Source of the DNA: Planktotalea frisia
GTDB taxonomy: Bacteria; Pseudomonadota; Alphaproteobacteria; Rhodobacterales; Rhodobacteraceae
DNA: 64,000 nucleotides
NCBI RefSeq assembly: GCF_001890925.1
Contig: NZ_MLCB01000143.1
Location: 1-64,000, forward strand
Reading direction: 5' to 3'
A program made the position numbers and the translations under genes. The notes below the pieces were generated by a model. That model was not told the origin of the DNA, did no database searches, and saw only the letters and a program-made list of their open reading frames with translations. Below are positions 42,726 through 59,287 of this stretch, in pieces (the stretch's first letter is position 1; every line of letters begins with the position of its first letter).

Positions 42726-42758
42726 ACGCCCTCACACAAAAACAACTGGGAGACTTCA

Positions 42759-43754
42759 ATGTCTGTAATGCACAAAATTCTAGGCGGCGCTGCTGCTCTG
42801 GCACTTTCAGCCGGAACGCTCGTCGCTGAGCCTGCGATGATCTTCGATCTTGGTGGCAAGTTCGACAAATCCTTTAACGAATCCGCGTTTGCTGGCGCGC
42901 AGCGTTGGGCAGAAGAAACAGGCGGCACATTCCGCGAGATCGAGCTTCAGTCTGAAGCTCAGCGTGAGCAAGCACTGCGTCGTTTCGCAGAAGCAGGTTC
43001 TAACCCGATCGTCATGACCGGTTTCGCCTTTGGCAACGTTTTGGCTGAAGTTGCGCCTGACTATCCTGACACTAAGTTCGCGATCATCGACATGGTTGTT
43101 GATCAGCCAAACGTGCGCTCTGTTGTTTTCAACGAGCATGAGGGTTCCTACCTCGTCGGCATGATGGCTGCGATGGCGTCCAAGTCCAACACAGTTGGCT
43201 TCATTGGCGGCATGGACATCCCACTGATCCGCAAGTTCGCTTGTGGCTACGCACAGGGTGTCATGGCGGCAAACGCAGACGCGACAGTTGTTGCAAACAT
43301 GACAGGCACGACACCTGCAGCTTGGAATGATCCGGTAAAGGGTTCCGAGTTGACGAAAGCACAGATCAGCCAAGGCGCGGACGTTGTGTATGCAGCGGCA
43401 GGCGGCACAGGCGTTGGTGTTCTTCAAACAGCAGCGGATGAGGGCATCTTGTCCATTGGCGTCGATTCCAACCAGAACTACCTGCACCCGGGCAAAGTTC
43501 TGACATCCATGATGAAGCGTGTTGATAACGCTGTGTATCAGGCAATGACAGACGGTCCTGACATGGAAACAGGCTTTAACGTCATGGGTATCGCCAATGG
43601 CGGCATCGGTTACGCGATGGATGAGAACAACGCGTCCCTCGTGTCTGCTGACATGCAGAAAATGGTTGATGATGCGGCTGCGAAGATCTCTTCCGGCGAG
43701 CTGATGGTCCACGACTACATGTCCGACGACAGCTGCCCAGCGCTAAGCTTCTAA
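42759..43754 (+). CDS. BMP-family ABC transporter substrate-binding protein
   Basis: The 331-residue protein has a signal peptide (MSVMHKILGGAAALALSAGTLVA) and a BMP/PnrA-like binding fold: FDLGGKFDKSFNESAFAGAQRWAEETGG, PIVMTGFAFGNVLAEVAPDYPDTKFAIIDMVV, SKSNTVGFIGGMDIPLIRKFACGYAQGVMAANADATVVANMTGTTPAAWNDPVKG and DVVYAAAGGTGVGVLQTAADEG. Related proteins bind purine nucleosides, so that is the probable ligand. The ATG at 42759 matches the signal peptide start. It heads the ABC operon; a terminator follows it, so it is probably made in excess over the membrane parts. Confidence 0.92.
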   Translation: MSVMHKILGGAAALALSAGTLVAEPAMIFDLGGKFDKSFNESAFAGAQRWAEETGGTFREIELQSEAQREQALRRFAEAGSNPIVMTGFAFGNVLAEVAPDYPDTKFAIIDMVVDQPNVRSVVFNEHEGSYLVGMMAAMASKSNTVGFIGGMDIPLIRKFACGYAQGVMAANADATVVANMTGTTPAAWNDPVKGSELTKAQISQGADVVYAAAGGTGVGVLQTAADEGILSIGVDSNQNYLHPGKVLTSMMKRVDNAVYQAMTDGPDMETGFNVMGIANGGIGYAMDENNASLVSADMQKMVDDAAAKISSGELMVHDYMSDDSCPALSF

Positions 43755-53752: not shown

Positions 53753-55036
53753 TTATTTCGCGGTTAATGCATCTTCAAATGTCCGCAAACCTGTCTTTGG
53801 CGACTGCACAAGCACAGCCATATTGCCTGGCTTATGCTCATTGCGCAGCATCTTCATATGCGCCGCGGGCAACGCGTCCCACTCGAAAACTTCTGACATG
53901 CATGGATCAAGACGACGCTCAACCATGAGGTGGTTCGCAGCAGATGCTTGCTTGAGATGAGCGAAGTGGCTACCTTGCAAACGCTTTTGGTGCATCCACA
54001 TGTAACGCACATCAAACGTACAATTAAAGCCGGTGGTGCCCGCACAAATCACGACCATCCCGCCTTTTTTACAAACGAGCGACGATACCGGGAAAGTGCT
54101 TTCGCCAGGGTGTTCAAACACCATATCAACGTTCACGCCTTTGCCTGTTATATCCCAAATTGCTTTTCCGAACTTACGCGCTTCTTTGAACCACGTAGCA
54201 TACTCAGGCGTGTTCACCGTTGGGAGCTGTCCCCAGCAGCTGAAATCTTTGCGGTTGATCGCGCCTTTTGCACCAAGGCCCATAACGAAATCACGTTTGT
54301 CCTCATCAGAGATCACCGCAATGGCATTTGCACCCGCTGTATTGATGAGCTGAATCGCGTAAGAGCCAAGACCACCGGAAGCCCCCCAAACAAGAACGTT
54401 CTGGCCTGGCTTGAGATCATGTGGCTCATGGCCAAACAACATCCGATAAGCAGTGGCAAGTGTCAGCGTATAGCAAGCGCTCTCTTCCCACGTTAGATGC
54501 TTTGGACGCGGCATTAACTGCTGAGCTTGAACATTCGTGAACTGTGCGAACGAGCCATCAGGCGTCTCGTAGCCCCAAATCCGCTGCGACGTGGAAAACA
54601 TTGGATCGCCACCATTACAGTGCTCATCATCGCCATCATCTTGATTGCAATGCACGACAACTTCGTCACCAACTTTCCAGCGCTTCACCTTATCGCCAAC
54701 AGCCCAAACGATGCCCGCAGCATCGGAACCCGCGATGTGGTACGGCTGACCGTGCCCGTCAAACGGGGAGATCGGCTGACCAAGGGCTGCCCAAACACCG
54801 TTGTAATTCACACCTGCTGCCATAACGAGAACGAGCACTTCGTGGCTATCAAGCGTGGGAACATCAACCACCTCTTGCTGCATCGCCGTATCCGGCTCTC
54901 CGTGACGCTCGCGGCGAATGGCCCATGCATACATCGACTTTGGGACAAATCCGAGAGGCGGCATCTCACCCATCTCGTACAGGTCCTTTTCAGGTGCATC
55001 GTAAGCGATAATCCCAGTTTCTGTGTCCAGAGCCAT
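53753..55036 (-). CDS. ccrA: Crotonyl-CoA carboxylase/reductase
   Basis: This NADPH enzyme reductively carboxylates crotonyl-CoA to (2S)-ethylmalonyl-CoA, the key step of the ethylmalonyl-CoA pathway for acetate or C1-unit assimilation. The 427-residue MDR-type protein has MGEMPPLGFVPKSMYAWAIRRERHG, ITGKGVNVDMVFEHPGESTFPVSSLVCKKGGMVVICAGTTGFNCTFDVRYMWMHQKRLQGSHFAHL and NVLVWGASGGLGSYAIQLINTAGANAIAVISDEDKRDFVMGLGAKGAINRKDF. AGGAGG precedes the ATG at 55036. The upstream reading to 55114 is in the leader. meaA is on the other side of plsB-like and GNAT genes. Confidence 0.97.
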   Translation of the reverse strand: MALDTETGIIAYDAPEKDLYEMGEMPPLGFVPKSMYAWAIRRERHGEPDTAMQQEVVDVPTLDSHEVLVLVMAAGVNYNGVWAALGQPISPFDGHGQPYHIAGSDAAGIVWAVGDKVKRWKVGDEVVVHCNQDDGDDEHCNGGDPMFSTSQRIWGYETPDGSFAQFTNVQAQQLMPRPKHLTWEESACYTLTLATAYRMLFGHEPHDLKPGQNVLVWGASGGLGSYAIQLINTAGANAIAVISDEDKRDFVMGLGAKGAINRKDFSCWGQLPTVNTPEYATWFKEARKFGKAIWDITGKGVNVDMVFEHPGESTFPVSSLVCKKGGMVVICAGTTGFNCTFDVRYMWMHQKRLQGSHFAHLKQASAANHLMVERRLDPCMSEVFEWDALPAAHMKMLRNEHKPGNMAVLVQSPKTGLRTFEDALTAK

Positions 55037-55059
55037 GTTGGCCTCCTGTAATTTCAATT

Positions 55060-55072
55060 TGCCGCAACGCAG
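55060..55072. promoter_or_regulatory. Shared 13-base element, ccrA leader copy
   Basis: TGCCGCAACGCAG on the plus strand is identical to 57216-57228 upstream of meaA. Together with the preceding bases it forms TTGC-C-GCAA. It lies 24 bases upstream of the ccrA start codon. Confidence 0.55.
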
Positions 55073-55159
55073 AATCGTCGCTTCTAAGATTGAGTAGAGA
55101 CGCAAAAGCAACAATGCAACTCTAGAAAGTCACTTTTTGTAATTTTATAACCCAGCAGT

Positions 55160-55176
55160 CGCAGCATTATGCTGCG
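55160..55176. promoter_or_regulatory. 17-base palindrome between plsB-like gene and ccrA
   Basis: CGCAGCATTATGCTGCG is a perfect 17-base palindrome, ten bases beyond the stop of the acyltransferase gene and about 124 bases upstream of ccrA. No T-run follows, so it may be an operator or a processing hairpin. Confidence 0.45.
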
Positions 55177-55185
55177 CGCGCATTC

Positions 55186-56541
55186 TTAAGTTTTGAGATG
55201 CGCGATGCTGTTGGCATAGTATCGCAGCGCAAATCGCTGTGCTTCATCGACCACGATGCGCTCGCCTTCGCTTCGCAAAATCTTGCGTTCGCTCAAATGT
55301 TTTAGAGCAATCTCTGCTGTGTAGCTGATTTCACCGCGCGGCATATGCACATGCGCGCTTTTCATGCGGTCGAGCTCTGCTTGCATCAAACCGGCCAAGT
55401 CCGCCTTGGCGATACTCTCGCGGTCTTGCATGACGGAAGCCAGCAAGGGAACAGGCACCACAGGGACAATTTCTGCGATCTGCTCCATCAATTCCTTTGC
55501 AAGGCTTTCGGCATCCGGCGCACCATGCGTCTTAACATGCGCGCGCAAGGACACAGCGGGACCAAAGCTGACTGCTGCATAGCCAAAACGATGAAACCTG
55601 CCGCTCAAACGCAACCAAATTTGTTTCACGAAGAAACCTGCGACAACACTGATCCGCGCCCGAAAGCGACGCGTGCCCGCTGCATCAGCCGCCATCAAAA
55701 TGCGATCCTCAAGCACGCGGTCATAGTTCAACGCGACGGGTACAAAGAGTACTTCTCGGCCTTCTTCCTCGTAACCGTCAGTGATATATTTGAGCAATCC
55801 CAACTTTGGCGGCGCGAGCTTGCCATCCAACGACAAGCCCCCCTCGGGGAACATCGCCTGCGTCACGCCCGCTTGCGTCGCCAAATGAACGTAGCGCGCG
55901 AGGACACGGCGATAGAGATCGCCACGCGATTTGCGGCGGATAAAATAGGCGCCCATTGCTTTGATCAAACGACTAAGCGGCCAAACGCGCGCCCACTCAC
56001 CGACCGCATAGGCCAGCGCTGAACGCTCTGCTGCAAGATAAGTGACCAAGACGTAGTCCATGTTGGAGCGATGGTTCATCACGAACACCACTGTTGCGTC
56101 TTTGTCCAACGCGCTGAGACCTGCATCATCATGATACCCAAGTCGAACACGGTAAAGCGCGTTGCTGAGCCCCCGGGCAATCCGAATTGCGAACCCGAAA
56201 TACGCTGTGGCACTAAACGACGGCACAATCTCGCGCGCATATTTGCGTGCTTGCTCAAACGCCACATTCTCAGGAACGCCATTGCGGCGCGCATGATCTG
56301 CAATCGCTTGGCTCACATCTGGATCATAGATCAAACGCTGAATCATGTCGTAGCGCCGCGCCAGCTTGAATGGTTCAATCGGACGCTCAAGCCGTTCATT
56401 CACACGTTTTACGACACGTTCCATCCGACGACGGAAAAACCAACGCACAGATGGAAATAGGAAATGCGACGCAAAGGTAACGACCGCAAAAAGCAGGATC
56501 AGGCTAAAGAACCAAATGGGCATTTCTACAGTTTGCGTCAT
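55186..56541 (-). CDS. Glycerol-3-phosphate acyltransferase (PlsB-like)
   Basis: The 451-residue protein starts with a membrane helix (IWFFSLILLFAVVTFASHFLF) and contains the acyltransferase motifs VVFVMNHRSNMDYVLVTYL (HX4D) and TQAMFPEGGLSLDG (FPEG). It should transfer an acyl group to glycerol-3-phosphate or lysophosphatidate at the inner membrane. It is shorter than E. coli PlsB (about 800 residues), so it belongs to a distinct family common in Rhodobacterales. It is upstream of ccrA on the same strand, but the ccrA promoter lies between. Confidence 0.83.
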   Translation of the reverse strand: MTQTVEMPIWFFSLILLFAVVTFASHFLFPSVRWFFRRRMERVVKRVNERLERPIEPFKLARRYDMIQRLIYDPDVSQAIADHARRNGVPENVAFEQARKYAREIVPSFSATAYFGFAIRIARGLSNALYRVRLGYHDDAGLSALDKDATVVFVMNHRSNMDYVLVTYLAAERSALAYAVGEWARVWPLSRLIKAMGAYFIRRKSRGDLYRRVLARYVHLATQAGVTQAMFPEGGLSLDGKLAPPKLGLLKYITDGYEEEGREVLFVPVALNYDRVLEDRILMAADAAGTRRFRARISVVAGFFVKQIWLRLSGRFHRFGYAAVSFGPAVSLRAHVKTHGAPDAESLAKELMEQIAEIVPVVPVPLLASVMQDRESIAKADLAGLMQAELDRMKSAHVHMPRGEISYTAEIALKHLSERKILRSEGERIVVDEAQRFALRYYANSIAHLKT

Positions 56542-56612
56542 GGCGCGACCCTTGCAGTAAGGCGGTGGAGGGTAAATATGATTCTTAGGAACGAGTTAAG
56601 GATTGAAGAGAC

Positions 56613-57206
56613 ATGTCTGCCATTCGCATCACATCCGGCTTTGCCGAGACCGAACGCGCAGCAGTCGCCGCGCTCTATTGGGAAGCCTTTGCGCGCAAAC
56701 TCAACTTCGGTCTTGGTCCAATGACGAAAGGCATCGCATTTCTGGCCCGTGTCGCAGATCCGCGTTTCGCCCTTTGTGCACGCAGTGACACAGGCGCACT
56801 CCTAGGCATCGCTGGATACAAAACGTCTGAGGGCGCGCTGATTGGCGGCGGCTTTTCCGACCTCGCTGCAATTTACGGTCTTTTGGGCGCAACGTGGCAC
56901 GCGGCTTTGCTTTCTGTTCTTGAGCGAAATCTCGAAAGCGGCACTTTGTTGATGGATGGCATCTGCGTCACCCGCGAAGCTCAGGGCATGGGGCTAGGCA
57001 CTGCGCTTTTGCGTGCGATCAAAGACGAGGCAAGCGCACAAAACTGCGACGATGTCCGCCTCGATGTGATCGACAGCAATCCCCGTGCTAAGGCGCTTTA
57101 TGAACGCGAAGGCTTTGTTACAGGCAAAACCCAGTCACTTGGCCCGCTCAAACATCTCTTTGGATTTTCCACTGCGACTGAAATGCGTTTCATACTCTCA
57201 CTTTAG
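56613..57206 (+). CDS. GNAT N-acetyltransferase
   Basis: The 197-residue acetyltransferase has LLMDGICVTREAQGMGLGTALLRAIKDEASAQNCDDVRLDVIDSNPRAKALYEREGFVTGKTQSL, with acetyl-CoA loop QGMGLG and C-terminal strand. The N-terminal half is longer than in RimI and includes GNAT-family substrate helices. The substrate is unknown. It diverges from the acyltransferase gene and precedes meaA by 100 bases. Confidence 0.88.
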   Translation: MSAIRITSGFAETERAAVAALYWEAFARKLNFGLGPMTKGIAFLARVADPRFALCARSDTGALLGIAGYKTSEGALIGGGFSDLAAIYGLLGATWHAALLSVLERNLESGTLLMDGICVTREAQGMGLGTALLRAIKDEASAQNCDDVRLDVIDSNPRAKALYEREGFVTGKTQSLGPLKHLFGFSTATEMRFILSL

Positions 57207-57215
57207 CCAATGAAA

Positions 57216-57228
57216 TGCCGCAACGCAG
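57216..57228. promoter_or_regulatory. Shared 13-base element, meaA leader copy
   Basis: TGCCGCAACGCAG lies just upstream of the predicted meaA -35 box, the position expected for an activator site. It matches the ccrA leader element at 55060-55072. Confidence 0.55.
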
Positions 57229-57232
57229 CGAA

Positions 57233-57260
57233 TTGACACTTGCGCAAAATTACATATACA
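57233..57260 (+). promoter_or_regulatory. Predicted promoter of meaA
   Basis: TTGACA (57233-57238) and TATACA (57255-57260) are 16 bases apart. The spacer holds the palindrome TTGCGCAA (57240-57247). This is a strong consensus-like promoter, 48 bases upstream of the ATG at 57308. Confidence 0.65.
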
Positions 57261-57307
57261 TATCTTCAAACGTAATAAAATTACCAAGATGATTCATGAG
57301 GGCCGCT

Positions 57308-59287
57308 ATGACCGACACATCGAATGCTGTGAAAAAAGATCGCCCTTGGCTCATTCGGACCTATGCTGGCCACTCAACAGCGAAAGCGTCAAACGCACTC
57401 TATCGCGGCAATTTGGCGAAGGGTCAGACGGGCCTGTCTGTGGCTTTCGATCTGCCCACGCAAACAGGCTATGACAGTGATCACGTACTCGCGCGCGGCG
57501 AAGTCGGCAAAGTTGGCGTGCCTGTTTGTCATTTGGGCGACATGCGCACATTGTTTGATGACATCCCTCTAGAGGACATGAACACATCCATGACAATCAA
57601 CGCGACGGCCCCTTGGTTGCTGGCGCTTTATGTCGCTGCTGCCGAAGAACAAGGCGCGGATGCCTCCAAGCTGCAAGGCACGGTGCAGAACGATCTGATC
57701 AAGGAATACCTATCGCGTGGCACCTACATTTGCCCCCCGAAGCCCTCGCTCAAAATGATCGCGGACGTGGCTGAATATTGCTACACGAACATCCCAAAGT
57801 GGAACCCAATGAACGTCTGTTCTTACCACTTGCAAGAGGCAGGCGCGACACCGGAACAGGAACTCGCGTTTGCTCTGGCGACTGCTACTGCCGTCCTCGA
57901 TGAACTGCGCCCGCGAGTTCCAGCCGAAGATTTCCCGACGCTTGTGGGTCGTATCTCATTCTTTGTGAATGCAGGTATCCGTTTCGTGACCGAGATGTGC
58001 AAAATGCGCGCGTTTGTTGATCTCTGGGATGAGATTTGTCTAGAGCGGTATGGTGTTGAAGACCCCAAGATGCGTCGTTTCCGATATGGCGTTCAAGTGA
58101 ACTCGCTCGGTCTGACAGAGCAACAGCCAGAAAATAACGTCTACCGCATCCTTCTTGAGATGCTCGCAGTGACTTTGTCGAAAAACGCCCGCGCCCGCGC
58201 TGTACAACTGCCCGCTTGGAACGAAGCCCTTGGTCTGCCGCGCCCTTGGGATCAGCAATGGTCCATGCGCATGCAGCAAATCCTAGCCTATGAAACGGAT
58301 TTGTTGGAGTTCGACGACCTCTTCGATCAAAACCCCGCTGTGGATCGCAAGGTTGAGGAGCTCAAAACGGGCGCGCGCGCAGAGCTTGCCAACCTCGGTT
58401 CCATGGGCGGCGCGATAGACGCAATTGATTATATGAAATCGCGCTTGGTGGATTCCAACGCGGACCGCCTTAACAAGATCGAGCGCAATGAGACCATCGT
58501 TGTTGGCGTGAACAAGTGGCAGCAAGGTGAGCAATCACCGCTTCAAACAGAAGACGGCGGCATCATGGTTGTTGATCCAGCCGTAGAAGATGAACAAATA
58601 GCGCGCCTGGAAGAGTGGCGTTCAAGCCGCGATGACGCCGCGGTTCAAGTCGCCCTAGCCGCGTTGCGCGAAGCGGCGCGCAATGGCGAAAATGTCATGC
58701 ATGCCTCAATCCAAGCCGCGAAAGCTGGCGTCACGACGGGTGAATGGGCCGCACAAATGCGCGCAGTGCATGGCGAATATCGTGGACCGACGGGCGTGTC
58801 TGCGTCTGTGTCCAACAAGACCGAAGGCCTTGATGACATCCGTGATGCGGTAAATGTTGTAAGTGACAAACTGGGTCGTCGCCTGAAGTTCCTCGTCGGC
58901 AAGCCGGGGCTTGATGGTCACTCCAATGGCTCTGAACAGATCGCTTTCCGCGCACGTGATTGCGGCATGGACATTGAATATGACGGCATCAGGCTCACAC
59001 CTGAAGAACTCGTTGCCTCCGCGTTGGAAACCCGCGCGCATGTTGTTGGCCTCTCAATCCTTTCAGGCAGCCATATTCCGCTGGTTGAAGACTTGATGAA
59101 GCGCATGCGAGAGGCAGGTCTTGGTGACACGCCGGTGATTGTTGGCGGGATCATCCCCGATGACGACGCAGATCGCCTTCGTGCAATGGGTGTCGCGCGG
59201 GTCTACACGCCGAAAGATTTCGAACTGAATGCGATCATGAAAGACATTGTCACCCTGGCTGATCCCGCGCCGATTGCCGCTGAGTGA
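57308..59287 (+). CDS. meaA: MeaA-type (ethylmalonyl-CoA) mutase
   Basis: This B12-dependent mutase converts (2R)-ethylmalonyl-CoA to methylsuccinyl-CoA, next in the pathway started by CcrA. The 659-residue protein has an N-terminal TIM-barrel half (FDLPTQTGYDSDHVLARGEVGKVGVPVCHLGDMRTLFDDIPLEDMNTSMTINATA) and a C-terminal cobalamin-binding domain with GKPGLDGHSNGSEQIA (D536, H538, G541 of the DxHxxG motif), then SILSGSH and GGIIPDDD. Naming between meaA and ecm follows usage. The ATG at 57308 is preceded by GAGGGCC. The cobalamin genes in this window would serve it. Confidence 0.95.
   Translation: MTDTSNAVKKDRPWLIRTYAGHSTAKASNALYRGNLAKGQTGLSVAFDLPTQTGYDSDHVLARGEVGKVGVPVCHLGDMRTLFDDIPLEDMNTSMTINATAPWLLALYVAAAEEQGADASKLQGTVQNDLIKEYLSRGTYICPPKPSLKMIADVAEYCYTNIPKWNPMNVCSYHLQEAGATPEQELAFALATATAVLDELRPRVPAEDFPTLVGRISFFVNAGIRFVTEMCKMRAFVDLWDEICLERYGVEDPKMRRFRYGVQVNSLGLTEQQPENNVYRILLEMLAVTLSKNARARAVQLPAWNEALGLPRPWDQQWSMRMQQILAYETDLLEFDDLFDQNPAVDRKVEELKTGARAELANLGSMGGAIDAIDYMKSRLVDSNADRLNKIERNETIVVGVNKWQQGEQSPLQTEDGGIMVVDPAVEDEQIARLEEWRSSRDDAAVQVALAALREAARNGENVMHASIQAAKAGVTTGEWAAQMRAVHGEYRGPTGVSASVSNKTEGLDDIRDAVNVVSDKLGRRLKFLVGKPGLDGHSNGSEQIAFRARDCGMDIEYDGIRLTPEELVASALETRAHVVGLSILSGSHIPLVEDLMKRMREAGLGDTPVIVGGIIPDDDADRLRAMGVARVYTPKDFELNAIMKDIVTLADPAPIAAE

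Follow-up and report, generated by a model that had tools for sequence, protein, structure and literature searches.

A predicted PhaR operator shared by the ccrA and meaA promoters of Planktotalea frisia and conserved in Rhodobacteraceae

Crotonyl-CoA carboxylase/reductase is the key enzyme of the ethylmalonyl-CoA (EMC) pathway, and this pathway competes with PHB synthesis for acetoacetyl-CoA and 3-hydroxybutyryl-CoA. In Methylorubrum extorquens, ccr is reportedly regulated by the TetR-type protein CcrR. In Planktotalea frisia, a member of the Rhodobacteraceae, the EMC genes ccrA and meaA lie near each other on opposite strands, and a preliminary description of this region noticed an identical 13-base element in their two leaders. 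It considered a common regulator of the RamB/PccR type plausible, with TTGC/GCAA half-sites as the possible recognition unit. What this element is, and which regulator it may serve, is the question addressed here. The window is the whole stretch of 64,000 nucleotides that was analysed (positions 1 to 64,000 of contig NZ_MLCB01000143.1), and all coordinates refer to it unless another locus is named.

The 13-mer TGCCGCAACGCAG is found at 55060-55072 and 57216-57228, exactly where it had been described. It is located close upstream of ccrA, but 23 bases rather than the 24 given separate it from the start codon (ATG at 55036, minus strand). At meaA the element does lie just upstream of TTGACA, ending 4 bases ahead of this hexamer. 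The extension to TTGC-C-GCAA in the ccrA leader (TTGCCGCAA, 55059-55067) and the palindrome in the meaA promoter spacer (TTGCGCAA, 57240-57247) both occur as well. There are only 3 exact copies of the 13-mer in the 4.1-Mb genome, and inspection of the surroundings of the third one, on contig 211 (C211), revealed no obvious regulated gene behind it. Matches with up to two mismatches number 6 in the window against 4.8 expected, and an exact 13-base repeat within 64 kb is, taken alone, weak evidence.

Table 1 Features of the ccrA-meaA region (window coordinates)
Feature	Position	Strand	Evidence
ccrA, crotonyl-CoA carboxylase/reductase	53753..55036	-	TIGR01751, 614 bits (cut-off 379)
Predicted PhaR operator of ccrA	55057..55077	.	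core 55063-55071; matrix 16.9 bits; 78/81 leaders
ccr leader stem-loop GCGACG-ATTCTG-CGTTGC, overlapping the operator	55064..55081	-	arm pairing versus shuffled arms
ccr double-box, box 2 GTTGCATTGTTGC, over -35-like TTGCAT	55108..55120	-	TTGC[AT] offsets; gap-18 peak
ccr double-box, box 1 GTTATAAAATTAC, 18 bp from box 2	55139..55151	-	gap-18 peak; ccr-trained matrix
PlsB-like acyltransferase gene upstream of ccrA	55186..56541	-	PF01553, PF19277; synteny
GNAT acetyltransferase gene upstream of meaA	56613..57206	+	PF00583
Predicted PhaR operator of meaA, abutting the -35	57213..57233	.	core 57219-57227; matrix 14.1 bits; 65/68 leaders
meaA -35 hexamer TTGACA, conserved	57233..57238	+	GAATTGACA kept beside the site
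meaA double-box, box 1 TGCGCAAAATTAC, good match in the right half only	57241..57253	+	gap-18 peak; ccr-trained matrix
meaA double-box, box 2 GTAATAAAATTAC, perfect palindrome arms	57272..57284	+	ccr-trained matrix
meaA (= ecm, ethylmalonyl-CoA mutase by orthology and synteny)	57308..59287	+	TIGR00641/TIGR00640 acyl-CoA mutase domains

The ccrA element, centred 31 nt ahead of the ATG, probably lies inside the 5' UTR. The -10 of meaA is likely to be located at about 57255-57261, as judged from its spacing to the -35. A further in-frame ATG of meaA is present at 57296, and meaA is found near ccr in relatives.

The leaders of orthologous genes reveal which part of the element is conserved. The leader set comprises 80 ccr loci, all of the Rhodobacteraceae type, and the counts also take in the window itself. 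The core CGCAACGCA, which fits the palindrome YGCRNYGCR, is present at both genes, and this palindrome is found in 78 of 81 ccr and 65 of 68 meaA leaders compared with about 4 in shuffled leaders. The element is thus present in the relatives, and the idea of a cis-element of one regulator joining ccrA and meaA is supported by conservation of the core at both. The ccr site takes the form CGATTCTGCRNYGCGGCA, mostly 20-60 nt ahead of the ATG, and the meaA site takes the form TGCCGCRNYGCAGCGAATTGACA, mostly at -73 to -104 and abutting a conserved -35, with place and flank conserved in 60 meaA leaders. The exact 13-mer is kept in just 8 ccr and 17 meaA leaders. Because the core is kept in nearly all leaders and the extensions only in few (TTGCCGCAA in 8 of 81 ccr leaders, TTGCGCAA in 4 of 68 meaA leaders), the recognition unit is predicted to be the YGCR-N-YGCR palindrome and not the TTGC/GCAA half-sites that had been proposed. 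With so few occurrences, TTGCGCAA in the meaA spacer was also dismissed as a separate motif.

The shared element is very probably an operator of PhaR (AniA), the PHB-responsive repressor that is titrated by PHB granules. The PhaR motif of Sinorhizobium meliloti is WNWD2NYGCRNYGCRNH2WNW (PMC12542648), and the PhaR site of Rhodobacter sphaeroides and Paracoccus denitrificans is given as CTGCNNNGCAG, as cited in PMC12542648. A matrix was built from 33 S. meliloti sites, which themselves reach 5 to 25 bits, and with it the ccrA and meaA elements rank first and second among the approximately 64,000 positions of the window. Both also have AT-rich outer arms and fit the matrix of published sites overall. 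The third-best score in the window (13.6 bits) belongs to AATGTCTGTAATGCACAAAAT at 42758-42778. At the element, CTGCGTTGCGG deviates from the cited R. sphaeroides form CTGCNNNGCAG by one mismatch, a G standing at one position where that consensus has A. The relaxed pattern CTGCNNNGCRG is found in 75 of 81 ccr and 50 of 68 meaA leaders, and the site is also present at ccr of P. denitrificans and Methylobacterium aquaticum. The genome encodes PhaR (TIGR01848), and in its own pha locus the motif occurs twice ahead of phaP and once, with one core mismatch, ahead of phaR. In the PhaR loci of relatives the best site has a median of 22.6 bits compared with 8.6 bits for window stretches of equal size, with at least one locus lacking a site.

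The presence of the site tracks that of PhaR across genomes. Among the 32 genomes examined first, PhaR is absent from exactly those three that lack the ccr core (G014, G016 and G017), which have no PHB synthase PhaC either. Their leaders are nearly identical. Of 299 genomes drawn independently from the family, 7 lack PhaR. One of them, the complete genome G034, which lacks both PhaR and PhaC, has kept ccr with the site broken at the same position (TGATTCTGCGCCACGGC), and the PhaR-less set probably represents two independent losses. An intact ccr site is present in 46 of 47 PhaR-bearing genomes but in 0 of 4 genomes that have an EMC-type ccr and lack PhaR and PhaC. Two genomes deviate from this: G118 encodes PhaR yet lacks the ccr site, and G138, a 590-contig draft that is 92% complete and in which PhaR was not found, keeps the ccr site and two strong phaP sites. 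Fisher's test gives p = 2e-5, and 9e-5 with G138 taken as a case against the association, for genomes that are not independent of one another. The PhaR-less genomes G014 and G017 retain the meaA -35 but have other sequence in place of the operator, and the part of the ccr conservation represented by CGATTCTG stays in genomes without PhaR.

The genome contains 66 matches to the pattern KCYGCRNYGCRGM, compared with 19 for a reversed control pattern. The candidate regulon was drawn from among the matches listed (all but about 8 of the 66), and most matches in coding regions were disregarded as probable chance occurrences. Good-scoring matches include those in the leaders of mcl2, which forms an operon with mch (C143:68696), of mcl1 (C194) and of ppdK, which has been proven to be a target of PhaR in S. 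meliloti (PMC12542648); the match at mdh is weak. The names mcl1, mcl2, mch and mcd are given from family similarity, length and context rather than from a dedicated model. Most relatives have the mcl2 site at -71 to -84, with the core in 10 of 11 leaders, the own genome counted, and about half of the relatives have the core in the mcl1 leader. The mcd leader of this genome has only a weak core of 3.9 bits, and no leader of epi or phaAB was found. The element, for which the preliminary description proposed a search at other genes of the pathway, recurs at mcl1 and mcl2-mch.

Several further sites were observed. A PhaR-type site of 18.4 bits (L151:1556-1576, contig C158) is located between the gene for an ABC substrate-binding protein and a divergent ScfR-like regulator, which suggests cross-talk of PhaR and this regulator. 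Very strong PhaR-type sites of 21.7 bits (L139:1495-1515, C101) and of 15.6 and 23.2 bits (L124:1106-1145, C44) lie directly upstream of genes for small arginine-rich proteins, of DUF1127 type by eye. An Rfam search of two orphan PhaR-type sites gave no match. The mcl1 leaders L204, L207, L212, L213 and L214 carry a TGCTGCANNTGCRAAA-like motif at about -82 to -93, which exceeds the PhaR palindrome in width by one base.

A second element is shared by the EMC promoters. The 13-bp palindrome GYAAY-N3-RTTRC occurs as a pair of boxes with a spacing of exactly 18 bp at ccr, meaA, mcl1 and mcd, spanning 55108-55151 on the minus strand and 57241-57284 on the plus strand in the window, and occurring in leaders L169 (mcl1) and L256 (mcd). 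Measured from the GATTCTG loop of the ccr leader, the positions of TTGC[AT] cluster at -43 to -47, and they fall within -62 to -38 in 63 of 67 ccr leaders. When box pairs are scored at gaps of 5 to 29, the mean score rises at 18 bp to 15.5 at ccr, 15.7 at meaA and 16.5 at mcl1 compared with about 13.5, whereas no rise at this gap is seen over the same range in the mcl2 and mdh leaders. Strong pairs with the 18-bp gap number 51 of 79 at ccr, 40 of 68 at meaA and 22 of 30 at mcl1, versus means of 4.6, 3.4 and 1.5 for the other gaps. One other gap reaches 38 at ccr; it is probably gap 10, for which the mean score is raised as well. A double-box matrix was trained on ccr of relatives, with meaA, mcl1 and mcd serving as independent tests. 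In the window it gives convincing scores only at ccr (29.8) and meaA (17.8), the next score being 4.0; the high ccr score is expected because the training set consists of ccr orthologues. Elsewhere it gives 26.9 for mcl1 and 13.7 for mcd of the same genome, and 18.5 for ccr and 20.0 for ecm of P. denitrificans. The double boxes, which are independent of PhaR, are retained in PhaR-less genomes. The genome encodes two ScfR proteins (PF09856), one PccR-like and located beside pccB and one divergent. Class-2 RamB of P. denitrificans uses a pair of nearly identical boxes separated by an 18-bp spacer, and its deletion affects ccr, ecm, mcd and mcl-1 (PMC10370305). By analogy, the double box suggests that an ScfR-type regulator may act through it on the ccr and meaA promoters. 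The ScfR effect seen in the ΔramB strain would then have a concrete candidate site in the double box.

The PhaR assignment has to be weighed against other explanations of the 13-mer. The window contains 199 repeated 13-mer pairs compared with about 130 expected in order-1 random sequence, so the exact repeat itself is unremarkable in GC-rich DNA of this kind. Nevertheless, the probability of a mere chance repeat is practically negligible and this explanation was ruled out, because the core is kept at ccr and meaA across 80 loci and the two elements rank first and second with an independent PhaR matrix. It is also highly improbable that the 13-mer is a RamB/PccR-type (ScfR) site built of TTGC/GCAA half-sites, even though the genome has ScfR genes, one of them next to pccB, and the ccr and meaA leaders contain the GYAA/TTRC double box. 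PccR of R. sphaeroides, an ScfR protein, reportedly has the motif TTTGCAAA. No such motif with up to one mismatch is present in the ccrA and meaA leaders, whereas it occurs in the leaders of pccR and pccB, the PccR-like gene adjoining pccB. Because the half-sites TTGCCGCAA and TTGCGCAA are poorly conserved and TTTGCAAA is absent here yet present at pccB, RamB/PccR was rejected as the binder of the 13-mer. Moreover, the ScfR-like boxes sit elsewhere and persist where the 13-mer is lost. The proposal of a RamB/PccR-like common regulator thus fails for the 13-mer itself, but it survives in part for the separate double box with its RamB-type layout.

A different regulator with the same palindrome preference as PhaR could produce a similar pattern, since further TGC-type palindromes exist; this is very unlikely, because the motif also marks phaP, phaR and ppdK and because loss of the site tracks loss of phaR and phaC. 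Another reading of the conserved block at ccr is that it forms a hairpin in the 5' UTR of the mRNA and is not a DNA operator. A stem-loop with co-varying arms and a conserved loop around ATTCTG (GATTCTG) overlaps the ccr operator in leaders L004-L083 and L177-L193. Native ccr arms pair better than arms swapped between genomes (z about -6, compared with -2.9 for the antisense and -1 to -2 for meaA), and PhaR-less genomes keep the GATTCTG loop on stems that are different and re-paired. However, the pairing register shifts among genomes with no single register prominent, so one single RNA structure is not established, and an Rfam search of the ccr leader gave no match. Furthermore, the YGCRNYGCR core vanishes together with PhaR, and the same core lies ahead of the -35 of meaA, where the arms do not pair to a similar degree. 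A hairpin in place of an operator is therefore unlikely, but operator and hairpin at ccr may both be true at once.

The PhaR assignment is supported computationally by the identity and conservation of the motif, by the coherence of the gene set and by its loss together with PhaR. Binding, the sign of the regulation and titration by granules are adopted here from the PhaR model of other species. According to this model, PhaR bound to YGCRNYGCR would repress ccrA from a site that lies just 5' of the start codon and probably beyond the transcription start, and would repress meaA/ecm from a site abutting the -35. mcl1, mcl2-mch, phaP and phaR would be repressed together with them. An excess of acetyl-CoA would lead to the formation of PHB granules, which would draw PhaR away from its operators, and its release would open the EMC pathway once storage has begun.

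Conservation of the site at acetate genes across the family points to a hitherto unreported connection of carbon storage with the use of acetate. The predicted operators at ccr, ecm and mcl2-mch would offer a simple answer to the competition between the two routes, in which storage status gates assimilation. We can also imagine, more tentatively and with some doubt, that the EMC promoters of Rhodobacteraceae receive two global inputs, PhaR and an ScfR acyl-CoA sensor acting through the double box, the ccr hairpin being a third layer that survives loss of PhaR. If true, this would answer how the EMC pathway is switched on, its induction being called enigmatic by the authors of the Paracoccus RamB study (PMC10370305). 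PhaR of M. extorquens has been reported to affect acetyl-CoA flux partitioning (PMC6520949). A link of PhaR to EMC genes, including operators at these genes, was not found in the open-access literature, a scope that makes its novelty provisional.

The arrangement can be compared with known systems of both regulator families. As for PccR of R. sphaeroides, a homologue with TTTGCAAA sites is located beside pccB in P. frisia, but ccrA and meaA have none. The double box shares the 18-bp layout and the same four genes with class-2 RamB, to which it is likened by layout; the proven RamB target is the glyoxylate operon (PMC10370305), and the two ScfR proteins found here are PccR-like and divergent. 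The text on the S. meliloti PhaR regulon reports PHB, EPS and central-carbon targets and names no EMC gene, but the YGCRNYGCR palindrome and the phasin and ppdK targets are the same, and S. meliloti sites are often located near the -35 or between the -10 and the transcription start (PMC12542648). The cited PhaR site CTGCNNNGCAG of R. sphaeroides and P. denitrificans is one base off CTGCNNNGCGG of P. frisia. In these bacteria of the same order the palindrome geometry is the same, and PhaR represses phasin genes according to that citation.
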